The translations under genes and the position numbers were made by a program. From contig JAKIWL010000003.1 in assembly GCA_022750055.1 (NCBI GenBank), forward strand, positions 305,300 to 369,299: a stretch of 64,000 nt of DNA, in the 5' to 3' direction. Under the pieces are notes generated by a model. The model had not been told where the DNA came from. It made no database searches and saw only the letters and a program-made list of their open reading frames with translations. Position 1 is the stretch's first letter. Every line of letters starts with the position of its first letter. This stretch comes from Thermoplasmata archaeon. GTDB taxonomy: Archaea > Thermoplasmatota > Thermoplasmata > Lutacidiplasmatales > UBA184. Shown here in pieces: positions 25,966 to 35,022 of this stretch.

Positions 25966-26916
25966 TCACGTCGCCGGAGCGGCGGCCGAAAACGGCTGCG
26001 TCTGCTCCCAGCAGAGTTGGAACAACGCAAGGGCGAGGTCTCGGTCATGCGAGGCCCGGGACGAGCGGCGCTCCCCGGAACGGACGAAGTATCGACCGGA
26101 TACACCGTCGACCCGGGGTGAGGTGGCCAGGAATACGGTGGTCCGGGCGCCCCGTTCCGCCGAGATTCCGAAGAGGAACTCGGCGAGCGCGATCCCGCGC
26201 CCGAACAACCCGGGATTGGCGCGCCCGAATCGGGTCGAGACGAAACCCGGGTGCAGCGCGTTCGCGCACACCTTCGTTCCGGAAAGCCGTCGGGCCCACT
26301 CATAGGTAAGCAAGAGGAGTGCGAGCTTGGATTGGCCGTACGCCCCGAAACCCGAATACCGGTGGCGCCGCTCGGGGTCCCCGAGGTCGACCCGGGCCCC
26401 TCGGTGCGCCGCAGAAGATACGTTCACTACGCGGGCGTTGGGAGCGGCCCTCAGCCGGTCCTCGAGCAACCGGATCAGCAAGAAGGGGGCGAGGACGTTG
26501 AGGGACCAGGTCCGCTCGTGTCCTTCTGGGGTCTCCTGTCGGGTCGAATAGATCGCCCCAGCATTGTTGATGAGGACGTCGAGGCGAGGGAACCGGTCCC
26601 GAACCTCGCGCGCGAGGTGGGCCACTTCCGACTGGAGCGAGAGGTCGGCGGCGAAATCGAAGACCGAAGGGTTCCCGCTCTCGAGACGCAGGGCCTCGGC
26701 GACCGACCGGGTGCGGTCGGGGTACCGTCCCACGATGAGCACGCTCGCCCCAAAGCGCGCGATCTCTCTTGCGCTGACCCTTCCTATCCCCGACGTTCCG
26801 CCCGTCACGAGCACGACGCGGCCCGCCAGGCTCCCCGCAATCGCCTCCCTGGCCTCGGTGCCCCCCCGTCCCGCCGGGTCCCCATCCTGGCGTTCGACGC
26901 GCCGTCGAGCGGCCAC
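25966..26916 (-). CDS. Short-chain dehydrogenase/reductase
   Basis: A 316-residue SDR oxidoreductase. The nucleotide-binding TGGTSGIG (about 39-46), NNAG, the catalytic Ser in VVNVSSAAHRG and YGQSK (Tyr-x3-Lys) are all present. The overall pattern, with LNVLAPFLLIRLLEDRL and LHPGFVSTRFG, is closest to retinol-dehydrogenase-like SDRs. The substrate is unknown. It starts with GTG 16 nt after the stop of the oxidoreductase beta gene on the same strand, so it is probably the third gene of that operon. Confidence 0.88.
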   Translation of the reverse strand: MAARRRVERQDGDPAGRGGTEAREAIAGSLAGRVVLVTGGTSGIGRVSAREIARFGASVLIVGRYPDRTRSVAEALRLESGNPSVFDFAADLSLQSEVAHLAREVRDRFPRLDVLINNAGAIYSTRQETPEGHERTWSLNVLAPFLLIRLLEDRLRAAPNARVVNVSSAAHRGARVDLGDPERRHRYSGFGAYGQSKLALLLLTYEWARRLSGTKVCANALHPGFVSTRFGRANPGLFGRGIALAEFLFGISAERGARTTVFLATSPRVDGVSGRYFVRSGERRSSRASHDRDLALALFQLCWEQTQPFSAAAPAT

Positions 26917-26932
26917 GCCTCGACCCCTCGGG

Positions 26933-27832
26933 CTAGACGAACTCGTCGAGGAGGCTCTCGCGGCCCTTCAGGCCGGTGGGTTGCTTCGCGAGCGGCCCGG
27001 CGTTCAGGACCTGTTCGAGGTCCTCGTACGTCGGCCGCTCCGCGCGGTAGAACAATCCGATGGGGATCTTGTCGCCCCACTCCAAGGAACGCTCAAAGGC
27101 GAGGGCCCGGTTGGATGGGTCGTGGCCGGAGTTCTCGAGCTTGTAGACGCGCTGTCGGAAGAAGTCGAAGGTGTTGATCTTGTTATACGTCACGCACGGG
27201 GAGAGCGCATCGATGAACGCGAATCCCTTGTGGGATATCCCATTCTGGATCAGGTCGGCCATGTGCTTGACGTCTCCCGAGAATCCCCGGGCGACGTACG
27301 TAGCGCCGCTCGCGATCGCGAGCGCGATCGGGTCGATGGGACTCTCGATGACCCCCGAGGGGGTCGACTTCGTCTTCTGACCGAGCATGGACGTGGGACT
27401 CGCCTGGCCGGTCGTCAACCCGTAGATCTGGTTGTCCATCGTCACGTAGGTCATGTCGACATTTCGGCGCATGGTATGCACGAAATGGCCGCATCCGATC
27501 CCGAATCCGTCGCCATCGCCTCCGGTCGCGATCACCGTGAGCTCGTGATTGGCCCAACGAATACCCTCGGCGACGGGGAGGGAGCGACCGTGGATCGCGT
27601 GGAACCCGTAGCTCGACAAGAAGTGGGGCAGGTTCGATGAGCAGCCGATCCCGGAGACGAGGACCACGTTGTGGGACGGGATCTTGAGCCTCTTGACCGC
27701 CATCTCGATGGCGGCGACGACCCCGAAATCCCCACACCCCGGGCACCACGTCGCCTTCGTGTCGGACTTTCCCAACATCGGGAGCGCGGTCCCGACCGTG
27801 GGCGGGAGGCTGATCGCGCTACTGCCCGCCAC
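26933..27832 (-). CDS. 2-oxoacid:ferredoxin oxidoreductase, beta subunit
   Basis: The 299-residue thiamine-diphosphate-binding subunit of a 2-oxoacid:ferredoxin oxidoreductase, which oxidatively decarboxylates pyruvate or 2-oxoglutarate to the acyl-CoA with reduction of ferredoxin. Four Cys match the [4Fe-4S] ligands of archaeal enzymes: C30 and C33 in WCPGCGDFG, C64 in GIGCSSN and the Cys in LSPCVTYN. The TPP motif is GDGDGFGIGCGHF with DNQIYGLTTGQ. The GTG start overlaps the end of the alpha gene by 14 nt. Confidence 0.94.
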   Translation of the reverse strand: MAGSSAISLPPTVGTALPMLGKSDTKATWCPGCGDFGVVAAIEMAVKRLKIPSHNVVLVSGIGCSSNLPHFLSSYGFHAIHGRSLPVAEGIRWANHELTVIATGGDGDGFGIGCGHFVHTMRRNVDMTYVTMDNQIYGLTTGQASPTSMLGQKTKSTPSGVIESPIDPIALAIASGATYVARGFSGDVKHMADLIQNGISHKGFAFIDALSPCVTYNKINTFDFFRQRVYKLENSGHDPSNRALAFERSLEWGDKIPIGLFYRAERPTYEDLEQVLNAGPLAKQPTGLKGRESLLDEFV

Positions 27833-29573
27833 GACCCATCACCTCGATCCCCTTCTGGACGATCTCGTGCGGATAGAACGGTTCCCCGTCGTATTTCAGG
27901 AGGCGGTTTGGGATCTCGACGCCGGTCTCCGCGCGGATGAGTCGCCCCAACTGTCCGGAAAAGTTCGCCTCGACGAGAACCGGGCGCTTCGCTCGGGCGA
28001 GGTGGGCCGCGACGGCCGCACCGTGGAGCGGGTAGATTGTCGGAAGGAACAATAGGTTCGCCGCGACGCCCCGTTCTGCGAGGATCCGAAGCGCGTCGCG
28101 CACGGCTCCCGCGGTCGAGCCCCAGGCCACGAACGTGACCCCCGCGTCCGCGGGCCCCTCGAGGACGGGTCCCTCGGTCGAGGCCGCAAGCCCGGCGAGC
28201 TTGCTCATCCGCTTGTTCATCATCTTCGTCCGCTCGGCGACCCAGATTGGGATCCCCGACTTCACATCCGAGATCAAGTGACCCTTCTCGTCGTGCTCGT
28301 CCGAGCCGGCGATAAAGTTCAGTCCCGGCTGACCCGGGATCGCCCGGGGAGAGACCCCGGTCGGCGTGTAGAGGTAGCGCTTGTACTCGTGCCCGTTCGG
28401 TTCCACCGCGTACAGGGAAGGGATCTCGACGTCGAGGTCGAGCTCCTCCCGGTCGACGGTCGAAGTGCATTCGGACAGGTGAAAATCACTCGCCAAGAGG
28501 ACGGGCGTCTGCCAGGCTTCGGCGAGCTCGAACGCGCGGATCGTCATCCGGTAGGCTTCGGCCGGATTCGACGGGGCGAGGATCGCCCGGGGAAACTCCC
28601 CCTGGCCCGCGCCGAGCATCAGATTGAGGTCGCCTTGCTCGGTCTTCGTCGGCAGACCGGTCGACGGTCCGGACCGCTGGGACTCGACGACGACCACCGG
28701 AGTCTCCGTCATCCCCGCCATGCCGAGCGCCTCGACCATGAGGGAAAACCCCCCGCCGCTCGTGGCGGTCATCGCTCGGACTCCGCCGAAGGAGGCGCCG
28801 ATCGCCATGTTGATCGCGGCGAGCTCGTCCTCCGCCTGCTTGACGACGACGCCGATCTCCTGGGAATGCGCCGCCATCCAGTGCATGATCGTGGATGCCG
28901 GGGTCATCGGGTACTGGGCGAGAAACTTGCAACCGGCGGCGGCGGCGCCCAGCGCGATCGCCTGGTTCCCGGTGAGCAAGAGCTTCGGAGCCCCCGATGG
29001 CGCGACCGCATTCGGGTTGACGGCCGCGTGGGCCCGGGCATACGCGTACCCGTCCGCCGAGGCACCGAGGTTCCAATCCACCACCTCCCCCTTCTTCTTT
29101 CCGAACGAATCGGCGAGGGTCCGCTGCAGGATATCGAGCGGGATCCCCGAGAGGAAGGCCGTGGCCCCCAGCCCCGCAGCGTTCTGTAGGATCGATTGAC
29201 TCGTGTACTTGCGGGCGATCTCCAGCGTCGGGACGGCCAACGCTTGGGTGCCGACCGGCACCTCCTCGGGCGGGATCGCGAACTTCTCCGGATCGAACAC
29301 AACGGTCCCCCCGCTCGATAGGGAGGGAAGGTGGACCTCGGCCGTCTGATGGTCTAGGGCGTACAGGACATCGCACGCATCCCCCTGAGAATGAACCCGG
29401 TCCTTCGAGGCGCGGGCCTGGAACCAGACGTGGCCACCGCGAATCACGGACTGGTAGGCGTTGAGGCCAAAGACATGGAGCCCCATCCGGGAGAGGGAAC
29501 GGGTGACGGTCTCCCCGACGGAGGCGATCCCGTCGCCCGCCTGGCCGCCGGCGCGGACCGAGATTTCCTTCAT
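27819..29573 (-). CDS. 2-oxoacid:ferredoxin oxidoreductase, fused gamma-alpha subunit
   Basis: A 584-residue subunit in which the gamma domain (residues 1-190, with RAGGQAGDGI) is fused to the alpha domain (from about 205), as in two-subunit archaeal OFORs. The alpha domain carries the YPMTPAST motif, EDELAAINMAIGAS and TSGGGFSLM. Substrate range (pyruvate, 2-oxoglutarate or broad) cannot be assigned. The ATG at 29573 was chosen over a TTG nine bases upstream. A TATA box lies 35-40 nt upstream. The beta gene overlaps its 3' end. Confidence 0.93.
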   Translation of the reverse strand: MKEISVRAGGQAGDGIASVGETVTRSLSRMGLHVFGLNAYQSVIRGGHVWFQARASKDRVHSQGDACDVLYALDHQTAEVHLPSLSSGGTVVFDPEKFAIPPEEVPVGTQALAVPTLEIARKYTSQSILQNAAGLGATAFLSGIPLDILQRTLADSFGKKKGEVVDWNLGASADGYAYARAHAAVNPNAVAPSGAPKLLLTGNQAIALGAAAAGCKFLAQYPMTPASTIMHWMAAHSQEIGVVVKQAEDELAAINMAIGASFGGVRAMTATSGGGFSLMVEALGMAGMTETPVVVVESQRSGPSTGLPTKTEQGDLNLMLGAGQGEFPRAILAPSNPAEAYRMTIRAFELAEAWQTPVLLASDFHLSECTSTVDREELDLDVEIPSLYAVEPNGHEYKRYLYTPTGVSPRAIPGQPGLNFIAGSDEHDEKGHLISDVKSGIPIWVAERTKMMNKRMSKLAGLAASTEGPVLEGPADAGVTFVAWGSTAGAVRDALRILAERGVAANLLFLPTIYPLHGAAVAAHLARAKRPVLVEANFSGQLGRLIRAETGVEIPNRLLKYDGEPFYPHEIVQKGIEVMGRGGQ

Positions 29574-29606
29574 TCGGGACAACTCTGATTCCTTTCAGAA
29601 TCGGAG

Positions 29607-29616
29607 CGTATTAAGA
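29607..29616 (-). promoter_or_regulatory. TATA box of the 2-oxoacid:ferredoxin oxidoreductase operon
   Basis: TCTTAATACG on the minus strand, with transcription expected about 25 nt downstream, near 29583-29586. That gives a very short leader before the ATG at 29573, or leaderless start at the TTG at 29582. Confidence 0.6.
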
Positions 29617-29779
29617 AGTTGCTCCGTCGTTCCGTCGAAGCGCACGGGAAACCGGCCATCGGGGCCGGTCCGGCACCGGTTCGGGTCGAACGGAGAACGA
29701 GCTGCCTCGCCCGACAGCCCAAGGCCCGGTAAACCTTGAAGTATCGGACCCCCGTCCCTAGGCGGGGGCGTTCAGGTCC

Positions 29780-30169
29780 ATGGACAAGAAAACATCCCAT
29801 TCCGAGGACGAAGACGGGCCGGCGGTTCCCGACGGGGCCCAGCTGATCGACCGGATCGTGACCGAGCTCGATCTCCTCTCACGGAACGTGGACATCCTGC
29901 AACGGGTCTCGTCGGCGAACCCGCTCGGCATCATCCGGTTGAGCGAGATGATGCAGTTGCCGATCCACAAGGTTCGCTACTCGCTCCACCTCTTGGAACG
30001 CGAAGGGGTCATCCAGCCCTCCGCGAACGGAGCGGTCGTCACCGACCGGGCCAAGGACTTCTGGGAGGACCTCGACAAGGGTCTCGACCGGATGACCGAA
30101 TCGATCCAGGTCCTCAAGGAGCGCGCGGCCGAGCACCGGACGAGTCCGGCAAATCGGAAAGGCTATTAG
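29780..30169 (+). CDS. Winged-helix transcriptional regulator
   Basis: A 129-residue protein with an acidic N-terminus, a winged-helix domain (about 35-90: VDILQRVSSANPLGIIRLSEMMQLPIHKVRYSLHLLEREGVI, wing GAVVTD) and a C-terminal amphipathic helix (95-118) likely to dimerise. It resembles small archaeal predicted regulators with one wHTH; the target is unknown. It is divergent from the 2-oxoacid:ferredoxin oxidoreductase operon, which is the most obvious candidate target. Its last codons contain the promoter of the downstream tRNA. Confidence 0.75.
   Translation: MDKKTSHSEDEDGPAVPDGAQLIDRIVTELDLLSRNVDILQRVSSANPLGIIRLSEMMQLPIHKVRYSLHLLEREGVIQPSANGAVVTDRAKDFWEDLDKGLDRMTESIQVLKERAAEHRTSPANRKGY
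30158..30167 (+). promoter_or_regulatory. TATA box of the tRNA genes
   Basis: GGCTATTAGA overlaps the stop codon of the regulator gene and is centred about 33 nt upstream of the tRNA-Asn 5' end. No separate TATA box is seen between the two tRNAs, so they are probably co-transcribed. Confidence 0.5.
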
Positions 30170-30195
30170 AGGCGTCCTTGCTCGACGAGACCGGT

Positions 30196-30299
30196 GCCGC
30201 CGTAGCTCAGTGGCAGAGCGATCGGCTGTTAACCGAAAGGTCAGCGGTTCAAAGGTCCGGGACGCCATGCGTCCCGGGTTGAAACTCCGCTCGGCGGCG
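30196..30299 (+). tRNA. tRNA-Asn (GTT) with a 32-nt intron in the T-loop
   Basis: The acceptor stem GCCGCCG pairs perfectly with CGGCGGC (30292-30298) and the discriminator is G. The D arm is GCTC/GAGC and the anticodon loop is CTGTTAA, giving anticodon GTT. The T stem AGCGG (30243-30247) pairs with CCGCT (30287-30291), but the T-loop is interrupted. Removing 30254-30285 restores the standard loop TTCAAAT and yields a 72-nt tRNA. The only flaw is an A-A mismatch at pair 27-43 of the anticodon stem. The gene lacks an encoded CCA. Confidence 0.88.
30254..30285 (+). other. tRNA intron (position 59/60) with canonical bulge-helix-bulge
   Basis: A 9-bp hairpin CCGGGACGC/GCGTCCCGG with loop CAT is extended by two G-T wobble pairs. 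It is followed by a 3-nt bulge AAG, a 4-bp helix TTCA/TGAA, and a 3-nt bulge ACT next to the T stem. Cleavage between the second and third base of each bulge (after 30253 and after 30285) gives the exact intron and a seven-base T-loop. This is the hBHBh' motif recognised by archaeal tRNA splicing endonuclease. Confidence 0.8.
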
Positions 30300-30327
30300 C
30301 CCCCGCGACCCGTTCTGTAGCTCATGT

Positions 30328-30403
30328 GGGCCCGTAGCTTAGTCCGGCCAAGAGCGTCCGGCTCATAACCGGTTGATCGACGGTTCAAATCCGTCCGGGC
30401 CCA
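30328..30403 (+). tRNA. tRNA with CAT anticodon (elongator Met or Ile2)
   Basis: Acceptor GGGCCCG pairs with CGGGCCC, D arm GCTT...GAGC, anticodon arm TCCGG-CTCATAA-CCGGT, T arm GACGG-TTCAAAT-CCGTC, discriminator A; 76 nt with no intron. The anticodon is CAT. Absence of initiator features means it is elongator Met or the Ile2 tRNA whose C34 is converted to agmatidine; the GGGCCCG acceptor fits either. It is 28 nt after tRNA-Asn. Confidence 0.93.
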
Positions 30404-30539
30404 TCCGTTCCGTGCCCGCACTTCGGCGCGCCTCCAGTAGCGCGTCGGGGAGACGGCCTCGCCGCGGACCCTCAGCCGAGATCGCGGGGATGAGTTCCGA
30501 GCCGGAGTTAAGGCCCCTACCAGGTTGGGGCCGGGATCG

Positions 30540-31259
30540 ATGGTGGATCCGGTCGCTGGCCCGGAGCGGAGGATTCCCTCTCTTCGCGGAACGACGATTC
30601 GACGGACGATCGTCATCGGGAAGCTCTACCTCGCCATCGGGACCGGGATCTCCCTCCTGCTCTCGCTGATCCTTCTCGCCGGGCCCCATCGGGAGAGCAC
30701 GTTCCCCGTGACCTTTCCGTTGGAAATACCGCTCTTCGCGGTCCTCGGTTCGACCGGGGGCCTCATGACCTTCACTAGTGACCGGACCAAAGGGGTGTTC
30801 GAGTACCTCATCGCGTACGGGATCCGACCCCGCTCCCTGTTCATCGATGGACTCGTTTCGACCGCGGCGATGGTCGCCATCATCCTCGGTCTGGCGCTAC
30901 TCGTGGGAGTCGGGGCCGCGACCTCCCGAGGCATCGACCTGACTGGGGATTTCACCAAGACCGTCGCGCTGTACACGATACCGATGAGCTTCGCCGGTGC
31001 GTTGTTCACCTCCACCATCGGAATGATCTGGTCGTCTGTCTCGACCCCACGCACCGGGATCAACAGCCCGATCGGGATCGCTCCGATGGTGGGAATCGCG
31101 CCCACGATCTTGGTGTTGATCGTCGCCGAAACGGTCCCCTCCGGGGACTTCTACTACGTCACGGTCGGAGCCGCGCTCGCGATCATCGCCGCGGTCGTGG
31201 GTCTTCTCGCCATGTCGGCACGGCTGATGGGGCGCGAACGGTTCCTGTCGCCGCTATGA
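30540..31259 (+). CDS. ABC transporter permease (ABC-2-like)
   Basis: A 239-residue membrane protein with six likely helices (around residues 25-48, 59-75, 105-125, 145-168, 183-202 and 208-230). The loop FTSDRTKGVFEYLIAYGIRPRSLFIDGL matches ABC-2 exporter permeases. The ATG at 30540 follows a TATA-like GAGTTAAGG by about 31 nt. An ABC ATPase gene follows after 13 nt, completing the exporter. Substrate unknown. Confidence 0.8.
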   Translation: MVDPVAGPERRIPSLRGTTIRRTIVIGKLYLAIGTGISLLLSLILLAGPHRESTFPVTFPLEIPLFAVLGSTGGLMTFTSDRTKGVFEYLIAYGIRPRSLFIDGLVSTAAMVAIILGLALLVGVGAATSRGIDLTGDFTKTVALYTIPMSFAGALFTSTIGMIWSSVSTPRTGINSPIGIAPMVGIAPTILVLIVAETVPSGDFYYVTVGAALAIIAAVVGLLAMSARLMGRERFLSPL

Positions 31260-31272
31260 GGGGAAGACGAGC

Positions 31273-32175
31273 ATGACGACCGCGGATGCGCTTCCAGCCT
31301 CGTCGGGCCTCGATTCGAGCCGCCGGGGCCGCCATCGCATCGAGGCGCGGGGTGTCAGTTCTGGCTACCTCACCAAGCGGGTCCTTCAGGACGTCTCGTT
31401 CGTTATCGAAGAACCGGCGATCTATGTCGTCCTCGGCCCGAACGGAGCGGGGAAGACCACCCTGTTCCGGACGCTGGCCGGGATCCTGCGGCCGCATGAG
31501 GGAACCGTCGAGATCGACGGAATCGATGTCGGTCGACAGGCCGCGCAGACCCGCCTCCACTACCTGTCCCACATCGACGGGATACCCGACGCATTGCGCG
31601 TGGACGAGGCGCTCAAGTTCTACGCTCGGGTCGAAGGGGTGGGGGCTGCGGAGACCGAGAAGGTCGTCCGCCTCCTCGGGATCGAGGACCTGCGGGGTCG
31701 ATTCTTCTCTGAGCTGAGCCAGGGCCAGAAGAAACGGGTCTCGATCGCCCGGGTGTTCTTGCAGGAGCGGGCGATCTACCTGTTGGACGAGCCCACGAGC
31801 AACCTGGATCCCAAGCTGGCCCGCGAGATCCGCGACCTGGTACTCGCGTTGAGCAAGGACGACCTCGTCCTCTACTCTTCGCACAACCTGTTCGAAGCGA
31901 AGGAGATCGGGAAGTATGTGCTCGCCCTTCGAGCGGGCCGAGTCGGTTACTTCGGGCTCCTCAGCGAACTTCGACCGACGAAATACGTCATCGGGATACG
32001 CGCCGAAGGGGCCGAGGGAGTACTTCCCGCCTCGACCAAGCAGGGGGACTACTACCGGCACGAACTCTCCGGGCCCGAGGAGGTCCCCAAGTTCATCGCC
32101 GAGCTCGTGGCGAAAGGGGTCCAGATTCGCGAGGTAAAGGAGATGGAGAATCCGCTCGAGGATCTGTTCGCCTAG
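31273..32175 (+). CDS. ABC transporter ATP-binding protein
   Basis: A 300-residue ABC-2-type exporter ATPase. Walker A GPNGAGKTT (about 57-65), signature LSQGQKKRVSIARVF, Walker B IYLLDEPTSNLDP and switch His in YSSHNLFEAKEI are intact. The last 75 residues form a small regulatory domain ending LEDLF, as in multidrug/daunorubicin-type exporter ATPases. GAGGGGAAG lies upstream of the ATG. It pairs with the preceding permease. Confidence 0.92.
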   Translation: MTTADALPASSGLDSSRRGRHRIEARGVSSGYLTKRVLQDVSFVIEEPAIYVVLGPNGAGKTTLFRTLAGILRPHEGTVEIDGIDVGRQAAQTRLHYLSHIDGIPDALRVDEALKFYARVEGVGAAETEKVVRLLGIEDLRGRFFSELSQGQKKRVSIARVFLQERAIYLLDEPTSNLDPKLAREIRDLVLALSKDDLVLYSSHNLFEAKEIGKYVLALRAGRVGYFGLLSELRPTKYVIGIRAEGAEGVLPASTKQGDYYRHELSGPEEVPKFIAELVAKGVQIREVKEMENPLEDLFA

Positions 32176-32284
32176 GGCGGGAGTCGGGGCCTGAAGGTTT
32201 TCGTGTCGCCGCGGTGGGTCGCTGGGTGTAACTAGGGTGTATCTCTTGCACGAGTTTATGACCCACGACTCCTCCTTGGCAGCA

Positions 32285-33436
32285 ATGCACGCGCCCAAGG
32301 ATTCTTCGACGGCCCGCCCTCGGAACATGCCCAACCGTGAACTCGCCTCTCGGCGCTCCCAGCGGGCGCGGATGGGGGCCCTCCCCGTGCTCCTGCTGGT
32401 CGCCCTGGTGGGCATCGGGGTGGCCACCGGAATCACGATCCGGTCGGCCCACAGCGCCAATCTACTCCAACCTCTGTCTGCAGGGCACAGCCACCTGACA
32501 GCGCCTGTGGCCGCTGCCGCGCACTCGGCGAGCGACGGCGACAACGGGTCCGGAGATGGAAACGACTCCGACAACGACTCGCAGGGCGGCAACGACTCAG
32601 GAGACCATGATGGGGACTCGGGCTCCGGGAACGATTCCGGAAACGAATCCCAGGGTGACAACGAGTCCGGAGACCATGATGGGGATTCGGGCAACGGGTC
32701 CGGGAACGACTCCGGGGACCACAACGACTCCGATAACGATTCCCAGGGAGGCAATGAGTCGGGCGATCATGACGGAGATTCCGGCAACGGGTCCAACAAC
32801 GACTCCCAGGGTGACAACGAGTCGGGCGACCATGACGGGGACTCCGGCAACCAGTCGGGAAATGACTCCGGTGACCAGAACGGTTCCGACAACGACTCCG
32901 AGGCCGGTAACGATTCGGGAGACCACGACGGGGACTCGGGCTCCGGGAACGATTCCGGTAACGACTCTCAGGGTGACAACGAATCCGGGGAGCACAACGA
33001 CTCCCAAGGAGGCAACGAGTCGGGCGACCATGATGGGGATTCCGGCAACCAGTCGGGAAATGACTCCGGTGACCAGAACGGTTCCGACAACGACTCCGAG
33101 GCCGGTAACGATTCGGGAGACCACGATGGGGCCTCGGGATCGGGCAACGATTCCGGTAACGACTCCCAGGGTGGCAACCAATCGGGAGACCACGATGGGG
33201 ATTCGGGATCGGGCAACGATTCCGGAAACGACTCCCAGAGTGGTAACGAATCAGGGAACGAATCCGGGGGCGAGAGCGGATGGACGGACGAGAACCCCGT
33301 CGGATTCGGGACGGTTGCGACGACCGGAGGCGACGCGGCTCGCCCCGGCGTATTCAGCGGGACCGGGGGATCCTTGGATGGGATCTCCGGGTCGGTCGGC
33401 GACCTGGCCCAATCCCTGACGTCGGGGAGCGGATAG
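32285..33436 (+). CDS. Surface protein with Asp/Asn/Ser/Gly repeat region
   Basis: A 383-residue protein with one N-terminal membrane helix (GALPVLLLVALVGIGVATGITI, about 31-52), then a 250-residue low-complexity region built from degenerate units starting N(D/E/Q)SGDHDGDSG, and a non-repetitive Gly/Ser-rich end. The repeat is strongly acidic with dozens of N-x-S sequons (NDS, NES, NGS, NQS), so it could be heavily N-glycosylated or bind divalent cations; both are inferences. The ATG at 32285 is 22 nt below GTTTATGAC; in-frame ATGs at 32237 and 32258 are alternatives. No family recognised. Confidence 0.75.
   Translation: MHAPKDSSTARPRNMPNRELASRRSQRARMGALPVLLLVALVGIGVATGITIRSAHSANLLQPLSAGHSHLTAPVAAAAHSASDGDNGSGDGNDSDNDSQGGNDSGDHDGDSGSGNDSGNESQGDNESGDHDGDSGNGSGNDSGDHNDSDNDSQGGNESGDHDGDSGNGSNNDSQGDNESGDHDGDSGNQSGNDSGDQNGSDNDSEAGNDSGDHDGDSGSGNDSGNDSQGDNESGEHNDSQGGNESGDHDGDSGNQSGNDSGDQNGSDNDSEAGNDSGDHDGASGSGNDSGNDSQGGNQSGDHDGDSGSGNDSGNDSQSGNESGNESGGESGWTDENPVGFGTVATTGGDAARPGVFSGTGGSLDGISGSVGDLAQSLTSGSG
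32530..33279 (+). repeat. Degenerate in-frame tandem repeat region coding for (N-x-S-G-D-H-D-G)n
   Basis: Units of 12-31 codons begin with AACGA(G/T)TCGGG(A/C)GACCATGA-type sequence and recur ten times. Two stretches, 32843-32928 and 33041-33126, are identical over 86 bp at an offset of 198 bp (66 codons), showing a recent in-frame duplication. Confidence 0.85.
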
Positions 33437-33513
33437 GCGCCCTCGACCCACCGGGGACTTGTCGAAACCAACCGATTCAAGCTCGCCAGCGCTGGTTGGC
33501 TGGAGCTAGTTCG

Positions 33514-35022
33514 GTGCCCCGCAACGAAAGTGTCGAACGGAGGGACAGGCGGGGCCGCGTGTCAAGGGAGGGCAACTCGGTATCGGGCATCATCCCCGAA
33601 CGAGCGAACCGGGCGGTCGTCTTCCTGGCGTGCGTGGTCGTCCTACTCGGCTCGTTCGTTGCTGCCGCAACCGTGCGCCACGAGACACCCCCTGCCGTGC
33701 ACCGGTCTGGTCCAGTCGTCTTCGCTCCCCTGGTCCAATGGCATACCGCGTGCAGTGGCCCGCTCCTCGCGCATCTCCTCGCATCCACGACGAACGGTTC
33801 GAGCCCATTGACCGTGACCTTCTCCCTGCACCTTAGCGGGGGATGCGGACCGTTCCGAGCGGAGTGGCAGTTCGGCGACGGCGCCGATGGTCACGGCTTG
33901 AACGTCTCCCACACCTACAACGGTACGGGAACCTACGAGGTTTTGGCGGACGCGACAGATTCCATCGATAACGAGGCTTCGGCGAACGCGAGCATCATCG
34001 TGACCGGTGGGGGCGGACCGCTCGCGGTCCACGTCGAAGCCTCTCCAACGACCGGTCCCGCCCCCCTGTCGACCACACTGTGGGCCAACGTCTCCGGGGA
34101 CAATCTCACGGACGACCTGTCGGTCAGCTGGTCGTTCGGCGACGGCGGGCACGGCAGCGGCAGTCCCGTGCGCCATCTGTATTCCGACCCCGGGAATTTC
34201 ACAGCGATCGCCGAGATCCGAGGGCACGGCGGCGTGTCCGGGACCGGCCAGACGACGATCGCCGTTCAGCCCGCCGGGACCGCGAGCCCCCCCAACCTGA
34301 CCGTTCGGGCGAGCCCCCGGGTGGGCACGGCGCCGTTGAACGTAACCGTGCAGGCGACGTCGAACGCCGCGGCCGCCGGCGCCACCCTCGAGATCTGCTT
34401 CGGAGACGGGAGCGCGTGTCAATTCCCTGCCCACCACGGGTCCGGAGAGTCCACCGTCTCATGGACCCATACGTTCGTGAACAGCGGTTCCTTTACGATC
34501 ATCGGGACCCTGCTCGCGCCGAATCAAACGGTCCTCGTCGGGGCGACCACATCGGTCCTGGTCGAGCTTGCTTCCCCCCTGGAAGTGGTGGCATCGGGCG
34601 CGCCAACGACTGGCTCGGCCCCGTTGATGGTGTCATTCAATGCGGCGGTATCGGGTGGGAACGCTCCGTATTCCTTGCAGTGGGAGTTCGGTGACGGCGC
34701 GGTGGGGTCGGCCGTCCCGGGGGTCGGCGACACCCACACCTACGACCGGGCCGGCACGTTCACCCCGCACCTGGAGGTGACCGACGGAGCGGGCCTCCGC
34801 TGGTCGGAGTCGATCACGCCGGTGACCGTGGCCGCTCCCGTACTCACCGGCTGGATGCTCACGGTCGTCGGCCTGCCTGCGTTCGACCTAGTCGTCGTCG
34901 TCATGGCCGGAGTTTTCGCGTCAGTGGCCATCCTCGGAGGGACCGCCTGGATGGCCCGCAAGCGCCGCGCCATGCAGAGAGAGGGCGAGGAGCTGCTCCG
35001 GGAGATGGAACAGGACAAGTAG
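33514..35022 (+). CDS. Membrane-anchored surface protein with four PKD domains
   Basis: A 502-residue protein: cytoplasmic N-terminus, a signal/anchor helix (about 33-53), four PKD-type beta-sandwich domains and a C-terminal helix (about 440-472) with a charged tail KRRAMQREGEELLREME. Each PKD domain has the WxFGDG motif (WQFGDGADG, WSFGDGGHG, ICFGDGSAC, WEFGDGAVG) and ends in a HTYxxxGTF-like strand. PKD domains are extracellular adhesion or ligand-binding modules. The GTG at 33514 is the best guess; GTG 33559 is possible. The gene for the PKD-winged-helix protein starts 22 nt downstream. Confidence 0.8.
   Translation: MPRNESVERRDRRGRVSREGNSVSGIIPERANRAVVFLACVVVLLGSFVAAATVRHETPPAVHRSGPVVFAPLVQWHTACSGPLLAHLLASTTNGSSPLTVTFSLHLSGGCGPFRAEWQFGDGADGHGLNVSHTYNGTGTYEVLADATDSIDNEASANASIIVTGGGGPLAVHVEASPTTGPAPLSTTLWANVSGDNLTDDLSVSWSFGDGGHGSGSPVRHLYSDPGNFTAIAEIRGHGGVSGTGQTTIAVQPAGTASPPNLTVRASPRVGTAPLNVTVQATSNAAAAGATLEICFGDGSACQFPAHHGSGESTVSWTHTFVNSGSFTIIGTLLAPNQTVLVGATTSVLVELASPLEVVASGAPTTGSAPLMVSFNAAVSGGNAPYSLQWEFGDGAVGSAVPGVGDTHTYDRAGTFTPHLEVTDGAGLRWSESITPVTVAAPVLTGWMLTVVGLPAFDLVVVVMAGVFASVAILGGTAWMARKRRAMQREGEELLREMEQDK

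Follow-up and report, generated by a model that had tools for sequence, protein, structure and literature searches.

Bulge–helix–bulge (BHB) introns outside the anticodon loop interrupt a large share of tRNA genes in Thermoproteota (Thermoproteales, Pyrobaculum), several per gene, and similar introns have been reported across different tRNAs of these organisms, whose splicing endonuclease is an (αβ)2 enzyme with a Crenarchaea-specific loop (CSL). ARMAN-2, which has introns at various positions, uses a homodimeric ε2 EndA whose three-unit protomer bears an ARMAN-specific loop. Korarchaeum cryptofilum has been named as the only archaeon with an α2 enzyme and non-canonical introns (PMC4033280), and its EndA has been proposed to carry a specific loop. 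Many non-canonical introns are also described from wetland-soil Asgard archaea, the Atabeyarchaeia and Freyarchaeia (passages of PMC11291895). In permuted tRNA genes of Thermofilum pendens, the gene halves are swapped at the 59/60 junction in the T-loop (passages of PMC3218864). Passages of PMC4090602 give Euryarchaeota with α4 or α2 enzymes one intron, at the canonical position, while passages of PMC3218864 name three thermophilic methanogens as euryarchaeal exceptions with non-canonical introns. α′2 enzymes are described as narrow and broad enzymes as carrying a Lys-bearing loop, although M. kandleri EndA is partly broad yet lacks the loop (PMC6379350).

Here we describe a tRNA gene in a 64,000-nucleotide stretch of a Thermoplasmata genome of the order Lutacidiplasmatales (hereafter, the window). 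It shares the 59/60 junction with T. pendens, but is a linear gene with an intron. As in Thermoproteota, many tRNA genes of this genome carry introns outside the anticodon loop; however, the predicted enzyme is of the α′2 type and lacks the CSL. The absence of a specific loop likewise sets it apart from the Korarchaeum enzyme, its two-unit chain distinguishes it from the three-unit ARMAN-2 EndA, with which it would share a homodimeric make-up and introns at various positions, and the organism belongs to a different phylum from the Asgard archaea.

The interrupted tRNA-Asn gene and its genome

Positions 30196–30299 of the window (+ strand) read as a tRNA-Asn(GTT) gene that is interrupted by a 32-nt intron between tRNA positions 59 and 60. 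The 5′ exon (30196–30253, +, 58 nt) covers positions 1–59, the intron occupies 30254–30285 (+), and the 3′ exon (30286–30299, +, 14 nt) supplies T60, the 3′ strands of the T-stem and acceptor stem, and G73. All 12 stem pairs form across the insert, comprising the T-stem AGCGG/CCGCT (5′ strand at 30243–30247, +, partner at 30287–30291) and the acceptor stem GCCGCCG/CGGCGGC. TTCA (positions 54–57; 30248–30251, +) pairs 4/4 with the intronic TGAA (30280–30283, +) to form the central helix of a BHB whose 3-nt bulges read AA^G and AC^T and whose apical stem is long. The identity of the tRNA, the position and length of the intron and the BHB with bulges AAG and ACT, all proposed in a preliminary description, were thereby upheld. 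That description had also allowed for a 5-bp central helix: the lowest-energy fold does use this TTCAA/TTGAA register, but a 7-nt T-loop is regained only if the 4-bp register is used and cut at the usual 2|1 positions. Compared with the same fold with shuffled intron bases, the fold of the gene is more stable (z = −4.0).

ARAGORN did not call the interrupted gene, and the Rfam tRNA match stops inside the T-loop at 30249. With 30254–30285 removed, ARAGORN calls a 72-nt tRNA-Asn(gtt). The T-loop intron is thus confirmed as an observation and, on the sequence evidence, we are highly confident that this is the organism’s tRNA-Asn gene, with a BHB-type intron predicted to be removed by an α′2 EndA and a ligase.

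A second tRNA gene, uninterrupted and with anticodon CAT, follows on the same strand at 30327–30406 according to ARAGORN (30328–30403 in Rfam), and several relatives also have a tRNA gene downstream of tRNA-Asn (for example, loci L218 and L221–L223). In the surrounding 26500–34500, with names assigned by eye from translations, 2-oxoacid:ferredoxin oxidoreductase-like genes and a small wHTH-like ORF (29780–30169) lie upstream of tRNA-Asn and ABC-transporter-like ORFs downstream. The ORF at 32237–33436 consists mostly of tandem repeats (units of 63–198 bp) in which Ser, Asn, Asp and Gly abound, and is followed by a long ORF that resembles repeated PKD-type domains (again named by eye).

We identified 41 tRNA genes in the genome, 38 of them with RF00005 (E ≤ 10) and 3 with R1, a covariance model of a tRNA with a T-loop intron (16 training sequences, 8 from this genome); anticodons were assigned by eye. 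A T-loop intron of 30–35 nt, with 12/12 stem pairs in each case, was present in 14 of the 41: Asn(GTT), Glu(CTC), Gly(TCC), Arg(TCT), Arg(TCG), Ser(GCT), Ser(GGA), Ser(CGA), Gln(CTG), Asp(GTC), Ala(GGC), Lys(TTT), His(GTG) and Leu(TAG). The genome therefore holds at least 14 such introns. ARAGORN called 5 of the 14 genes unspliced and 12 after removal of the T-loop intron, with Lys(TTT) and Leu(TAG) being called once a D-loop intron (30 and 27 nt, respectively) was also removed. Relative to shuffled introns, the T-arm fold reached z < −2 in 9 of the 14 genes and ranged from −0.2 to −1.8 for Gln, Ser(CGA), Gly, Ser(GGA) and Asp. The BHB has a strict 4/4 central helix in 5 genes and one central mismatch (3/4) in the other 9. 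The preliminary description called a T-loop intron unusual in a euryarchaeal-type genome, and reviews likewise place most known non-canonical introns outside Euryarchaeota, with exceptions; however, this one does not stand alone, being one of 14 found in its genome and part of a phylum-wide set.

Arg(GCG) and a Met(CAT) gene probably have D-loop inserts as well; for Arg(GCG), ARAGORN accepts 140 of 294 trial deletions, so several junctions fit. Inspection by eye showed anticodon-loop introns in the Tyr, Met and Leu(TAA) genes. Missing among the 41 genes found in this 94% complete genome were all Pro genes, Trp and Ala(TGC), which may reflect genome incompleteness or interruptions beyond the recognition of our searches. 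Near-identical introns were not found between different tRNA genes: 15 of 91 own-genome pairs reached z > 3, but only 1 of 91 did so without the last 6 nt. In contrast to Thermoproteota, likeness between introns is thus almost limited to these exon-complementary terminal nucleotides, and intron transposition between genes of the Thermoproteales type is unsupported once they are omitted.

Phyletic range in Thermoplasmatota

We surveyed other genomes using R1 because the RF00005 results for nine genomes comprised best matches only, with low scorers missing. R1 matches intact tRNAs down to approximately E = 4 × 10−13, so we applied a cut-off of 1 × 10−13, bearing in mind that its E-values are rough. 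Since only 9–10 candidates per genome were scored in the class and phylum scans (150 in the own genome, and no more than 123 in the comparison with intact tRNAs), per-genome counts are lower bounds. The model was built on class I tRNAs, and Ser and Leu genes consequently rank low: it placed 11 of the 14 interrupted own-genome genes first, with Ser(GGA), Ser(CGA) and Leu(TAG) falling lower, among intact tRNAs.

Among 400 genomes of the class, all 95 from the same family had a best R1 match of E = 1.5 × 10−15 or better. In the phylum, 85 of 389 genomes, representing 38 of 155 genera, had a match at E ≤ 1 × 10−13. Reading sequences that scored at or near this level bore the matches out: a T-loop intron was present in all 30 loci read beyond the family, which represent 18 families and include two loci of the same order. 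Of 20 further loci, from f37, f54 and f60 (families of other classes), family f8 and the congener G028, 19 were resolved by the parser and one by eye; L298 failed the strict parser, apparently through one T-stem mismatch, with its insert visible by eye. The parser misplaced the 5′ start of L263 and L305, leaving the T-arm unaffected. Including f1 and f3 (the latter represented by G062), T-loop introns were read in 23 Thermoplasmatota families, while five others (f15, f19, f26, f27 and f31) had R1 scores at the level of intact tRNAs only. The 28 best-scoring loci outside the order, which are not a full count of carriers, comprised 18 tRNA-Lys, 5 Arg(TCT) and 5 genes with anticodon CAT.

A strict 4/4 helix was found in 37 of 45 parsed loci outside the family (27/30 outside-family loci, 9/14 other-class loci and the f8 locus) versus 5 of 14 genes in the own genome. 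Intron spread goes with relaxation of the motif, which is a description only, of related sequences picked by score.

Several Thermoplasmata have a tRNA-Lys with a T-loop intron (L257, L279 (f29), L278, L282 (f22) and, in the own genome, L238), and in families f1, f22 and f29 tRNA-Lys(TTT) also has a D-loop insert. According to passages of PMC4153887, tRNA-Lys went undetected in Methanomassiliicoccus luminyensis, a candidate case in which an interrupted gene may explain the missing tRNA.

Separately from how the introns are spliced, their spread could reflect protection of tRNA genes, with T-loop introns destroying the target of integrating elements in the 3′ half. The 3′ half of a tRNA gene is a target of integrases, and the intron position does split this half of the gene. 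Passages of PMC3218864 describe elements that integrate at tRNA genes of archaea. However, the genome encodes a single PF00589 integrase, which sits on a contig other than that of the window, with the closest tRNA identified on its own contig approximately 7 kb away, and we consider such a selective origin doubtful.

The splicing endonuclease

The genome encodes one EndA, with two PF01974 domains in a single ORF. The same two-domain arrangement was found, at a loose cut-off, in 18 of 19 genomes, while G050 had no PF01974 match among the 19 checked. At the family cut-off, none of the 19 genomes had a second EndA, although G062 and G103 each gave one weak sub-threshold row. We used AlphaFold to model the protein (pLDDT 92.4) and Foldseek to compare the model with known structures, obtaining TM scores (by query) of 0.87 for 5x89, 0.80 for 2gjw (A. 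fulgidus), 0.79 for 3p1y and 0.61 for 4fz2 (ARMAN-2); the confident model is thus closest in shape to euryarchaeal EndA of the fused or dimeric kind. The domain content and the model identify an α′2-type enzyme, in which two EndA units are fused in one chain and the C-terminal unit is catalytic. All 20 of 20 aligned EndA sequences share Y283, H291 and K322, which align with residues that we take to be Tyr115, His125 and Lys156 of M. jannaschii. The open frames of 495–617 aa in many members of the genus had raised the idea of an unusually long EndA, which we rejected as these frames are merely open upstream; the aligned protein is ~345–355 aa, as in the class.

The specific-loop site lies just before the catalytic-unit helix starting LSLxEAxxL. 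At this site the own EndA aligns to the M. jannaschii (1a79) and A. fulgidus (1r0v) enzymes without an insert, and no insert at the CSL site was present in 21 aligned Thermoplasmata EndA sequences. Structure 3p1y, whose title describes a chimeric A. fulgidus enzyme of the broadest specificity, aligns to the own EndA only past the loop site, and we read its extra residues as the CSL.

The reported narrowness of α′2 enzymes, the missing loop and the many mismatched central helices would all be accounted for if α′2 EndA alone were insufficient and a second factor, such as an extra EndA subunit, an accessory RNA-binding protein or another nuclease, enabled removal of T-loop introns. The lack of a second EndA at the family cut-off and the single two-domain ORF in 18/19 genomes argue against this, as does the statement in passages of PMC8707768 that homodimeric EndA does cleave relaxed (BHL) motifs. 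We therefore regard a second factor as improbable and favour a single α′2 EndA as the enzyme that would remove these introns.

Conservation, proposed removal and meaning of the intron

We found a match to the tRNA-Asn gene in 48 of 60 same-genus genomes, in addition to the own genome. The best match covered only the first 58–66 bases in 10 of the 48, and in 9 of these 10 the R1 search gave 101–106 nt. Incompleteness partly accounts for the 12 genomes without an Asn match, among them G032 (91% complete). In G021 the gene matched twice at full length, and in G014 a further long but partial match lies at the end of a contig; these extra matches could be contamination or fragments. An exact Asn pattern, spanning the anticodon loop to the T-loop and blind to an Asn gene with an anticodon-loop intron, occurred once per genome in 10 of 10 (the own genome and nine congeners, 91–100% complete), and the own-genome tRNA matches read (RF00005 and R1) included no further Asn gene. 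The second, uninterrupted tRNA-Asn that, according to the preliminary description, would point to a pseudogene if combined with a lack of spliced reads was not found in any of these genomes. Among named GTDB genomes (80 listed of 119 stretches), at least 44 Thermoplasmata rows carry the pattern, one of them from Candidatus Lutacidiplasma silvani AcS3-62 (L141). Most of the remaining rows listed are bacterial, and among the remaining rows that could be parsed the T-loop is almost always uninterrupted.

Of the 106 distinct Asn-like sequences, 37 lacked an insert and a further 3 (L131, L133 and L198) were omitted, which left 66 distinct T-loop introns, own included. Two of the omitted sequences, L131 and L133, were listed rows from outside Thermoplasmata with chance-like inserts and were dropped; L198 is a tRNA-Asn with a 26-nt A-rich T-loop insert, unlike the Thermoplasmata set in composition. 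All 66 introns occupy one position and measure 28–35 nt, 37 being exactly 32 nt. Their central helix has a mean of 3.2 of 4 pairs versus 1.75 in shuffled introns, with 4/4 in 23, 3/4 in 34 and 2/4 in 9. In 8 of the 66, the T-stem AGCGG/CCGCT is replaced by CGCGG/CCGCG, a change matched on both sides of the intron.

In the 37 introns of equal length, 88.3% of cells pair versus 77.8% when shuffled, and sliding the partner strand along lowers pairing from 88% to 40–52%. Ten pairs have changes on both sides, 8 of them within the 9-bp apical stem, so that double compensatory changes occur at 8 of the 9 apical-stem pairs. Covariation was 0.267 versus 0.108 in shuffled alignments, with 0 of 500 shuffles as high, while the ‘further pair types’ statistic was matched by 8 of 500; these shuffle tests ignore relatedness among the sequences. 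The central helix is weaker, with 73.6% of cells paired and C56 unpaired in 24 of 37, and the RNAalifold consensus of the Asn introns lacks it. The insert sequence diverges while the exons are near identical; this divergence, together with the persisting fold and exon complementarity, fits a spliced intron as opposed to a decaying insert.

For the Asn intron, 20 further regions were read; L229 proved to be a tRNA-Lys and L234 held no Asn gene, and neither was counted. Outside the order, 14 of 14 tRNA-Asn T-loops were intact (12 genes wholly intact and 2 with an anticodon-loop intron), and the Asn intron thus appears confined to the order. The tRNA-Asn of G062 (L218, C20:22600–22950) has an anticodon-loop insert and a very short, 14-nt T-loop insert, whose BHB would be almost devoid of an apical stem.

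A hairpin so conserved in position and by covariation might instead stay in the mature RNA as an extended T-arm, without splicing. Yet the last intron bases keep their complementarity to the T-loop, a pairing that would compete with the usual T-loop/D-loop contact; the insert diverges between near-identical exons; and removal restores a standard tRNA in 14 of 14 genes, although in two the D-loop intron has to be taken out as well. Retention is therefore very unlikely. That the gene is a pseudogene or assembly artefact, as its being missed by ARAGORN might suggest, is barely credible given the different intron sequences in many separately assembled genomes, the sole Asn-pattern match in 10/10 genomes and the intact stems.

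Returning to excision by EndA, which we infer from sequence, the loop strand TTCR would pair with bases at the end of the intron (about −6 to −3), so that 3-nt bulges fall at both splice sites. The single EndA, as an α′2 homodimer of the two-domain chain, would cut both bulges, and the archaeal tRNA ligase would join 59 to 60. EndA most likely recognises the BHB wherever it is placed in the tRNA, in which case a canonical or near-canonical BHB in the T-loop would be cut like an anticodon-loop intron. Because TTCRAA at 54–59 is common to nearly every tRNA, one BHB design would fit many tRNAs, and the lineage appears to have used it in at least 14 genes, with mismatched central helices presumably tolerated without the specific loop. 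On this basis, Thermoplasmatota may represent a third, independent route to broad specificity, in which relaxed-BHB introns in T- and D-loops are removed by an α′2 EndA that has no crenarchaeal or ARMAN loop, so that about one-third of Lutacidiplasmatales tRNA genes could become interrupted; we judge the case for and against this proposal to be evenly balanced.

We found no description of T-loop introns in Thermoplasmatota among the matches listed for the open-access literature. Some instances may have been catalogued elsewhere, such as in the tRNAscan-SE 2.0 set, for whose intron model some introns from Euryarchaeota were used (passages of PMC8450103). The order Lutacidiplasmatales is described in PMC9287336 and, as far as its main text goes, the word ‘intron’ is absent.

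The surprise lies in the distribution and in the pairing of enzyme and substrate. As ARAGORN left 9 of the 14 interrupted genes uncalled, ‘missing’ tRNAs in such genomes may be artefacts. Reviews tie non-canonical introns to EndA with an extra RNA-binding loop and see euryarchaeal α′2 enzymes as canonical-only. With T-loop introns in many families and an α′2 EndA in 18 of the 19 genomes checked, either this rule is broken or it concerns the strictness of the motif and not its position. If the third route is real, the published rule linking non-canonical introns to the specific loop would be wrong.
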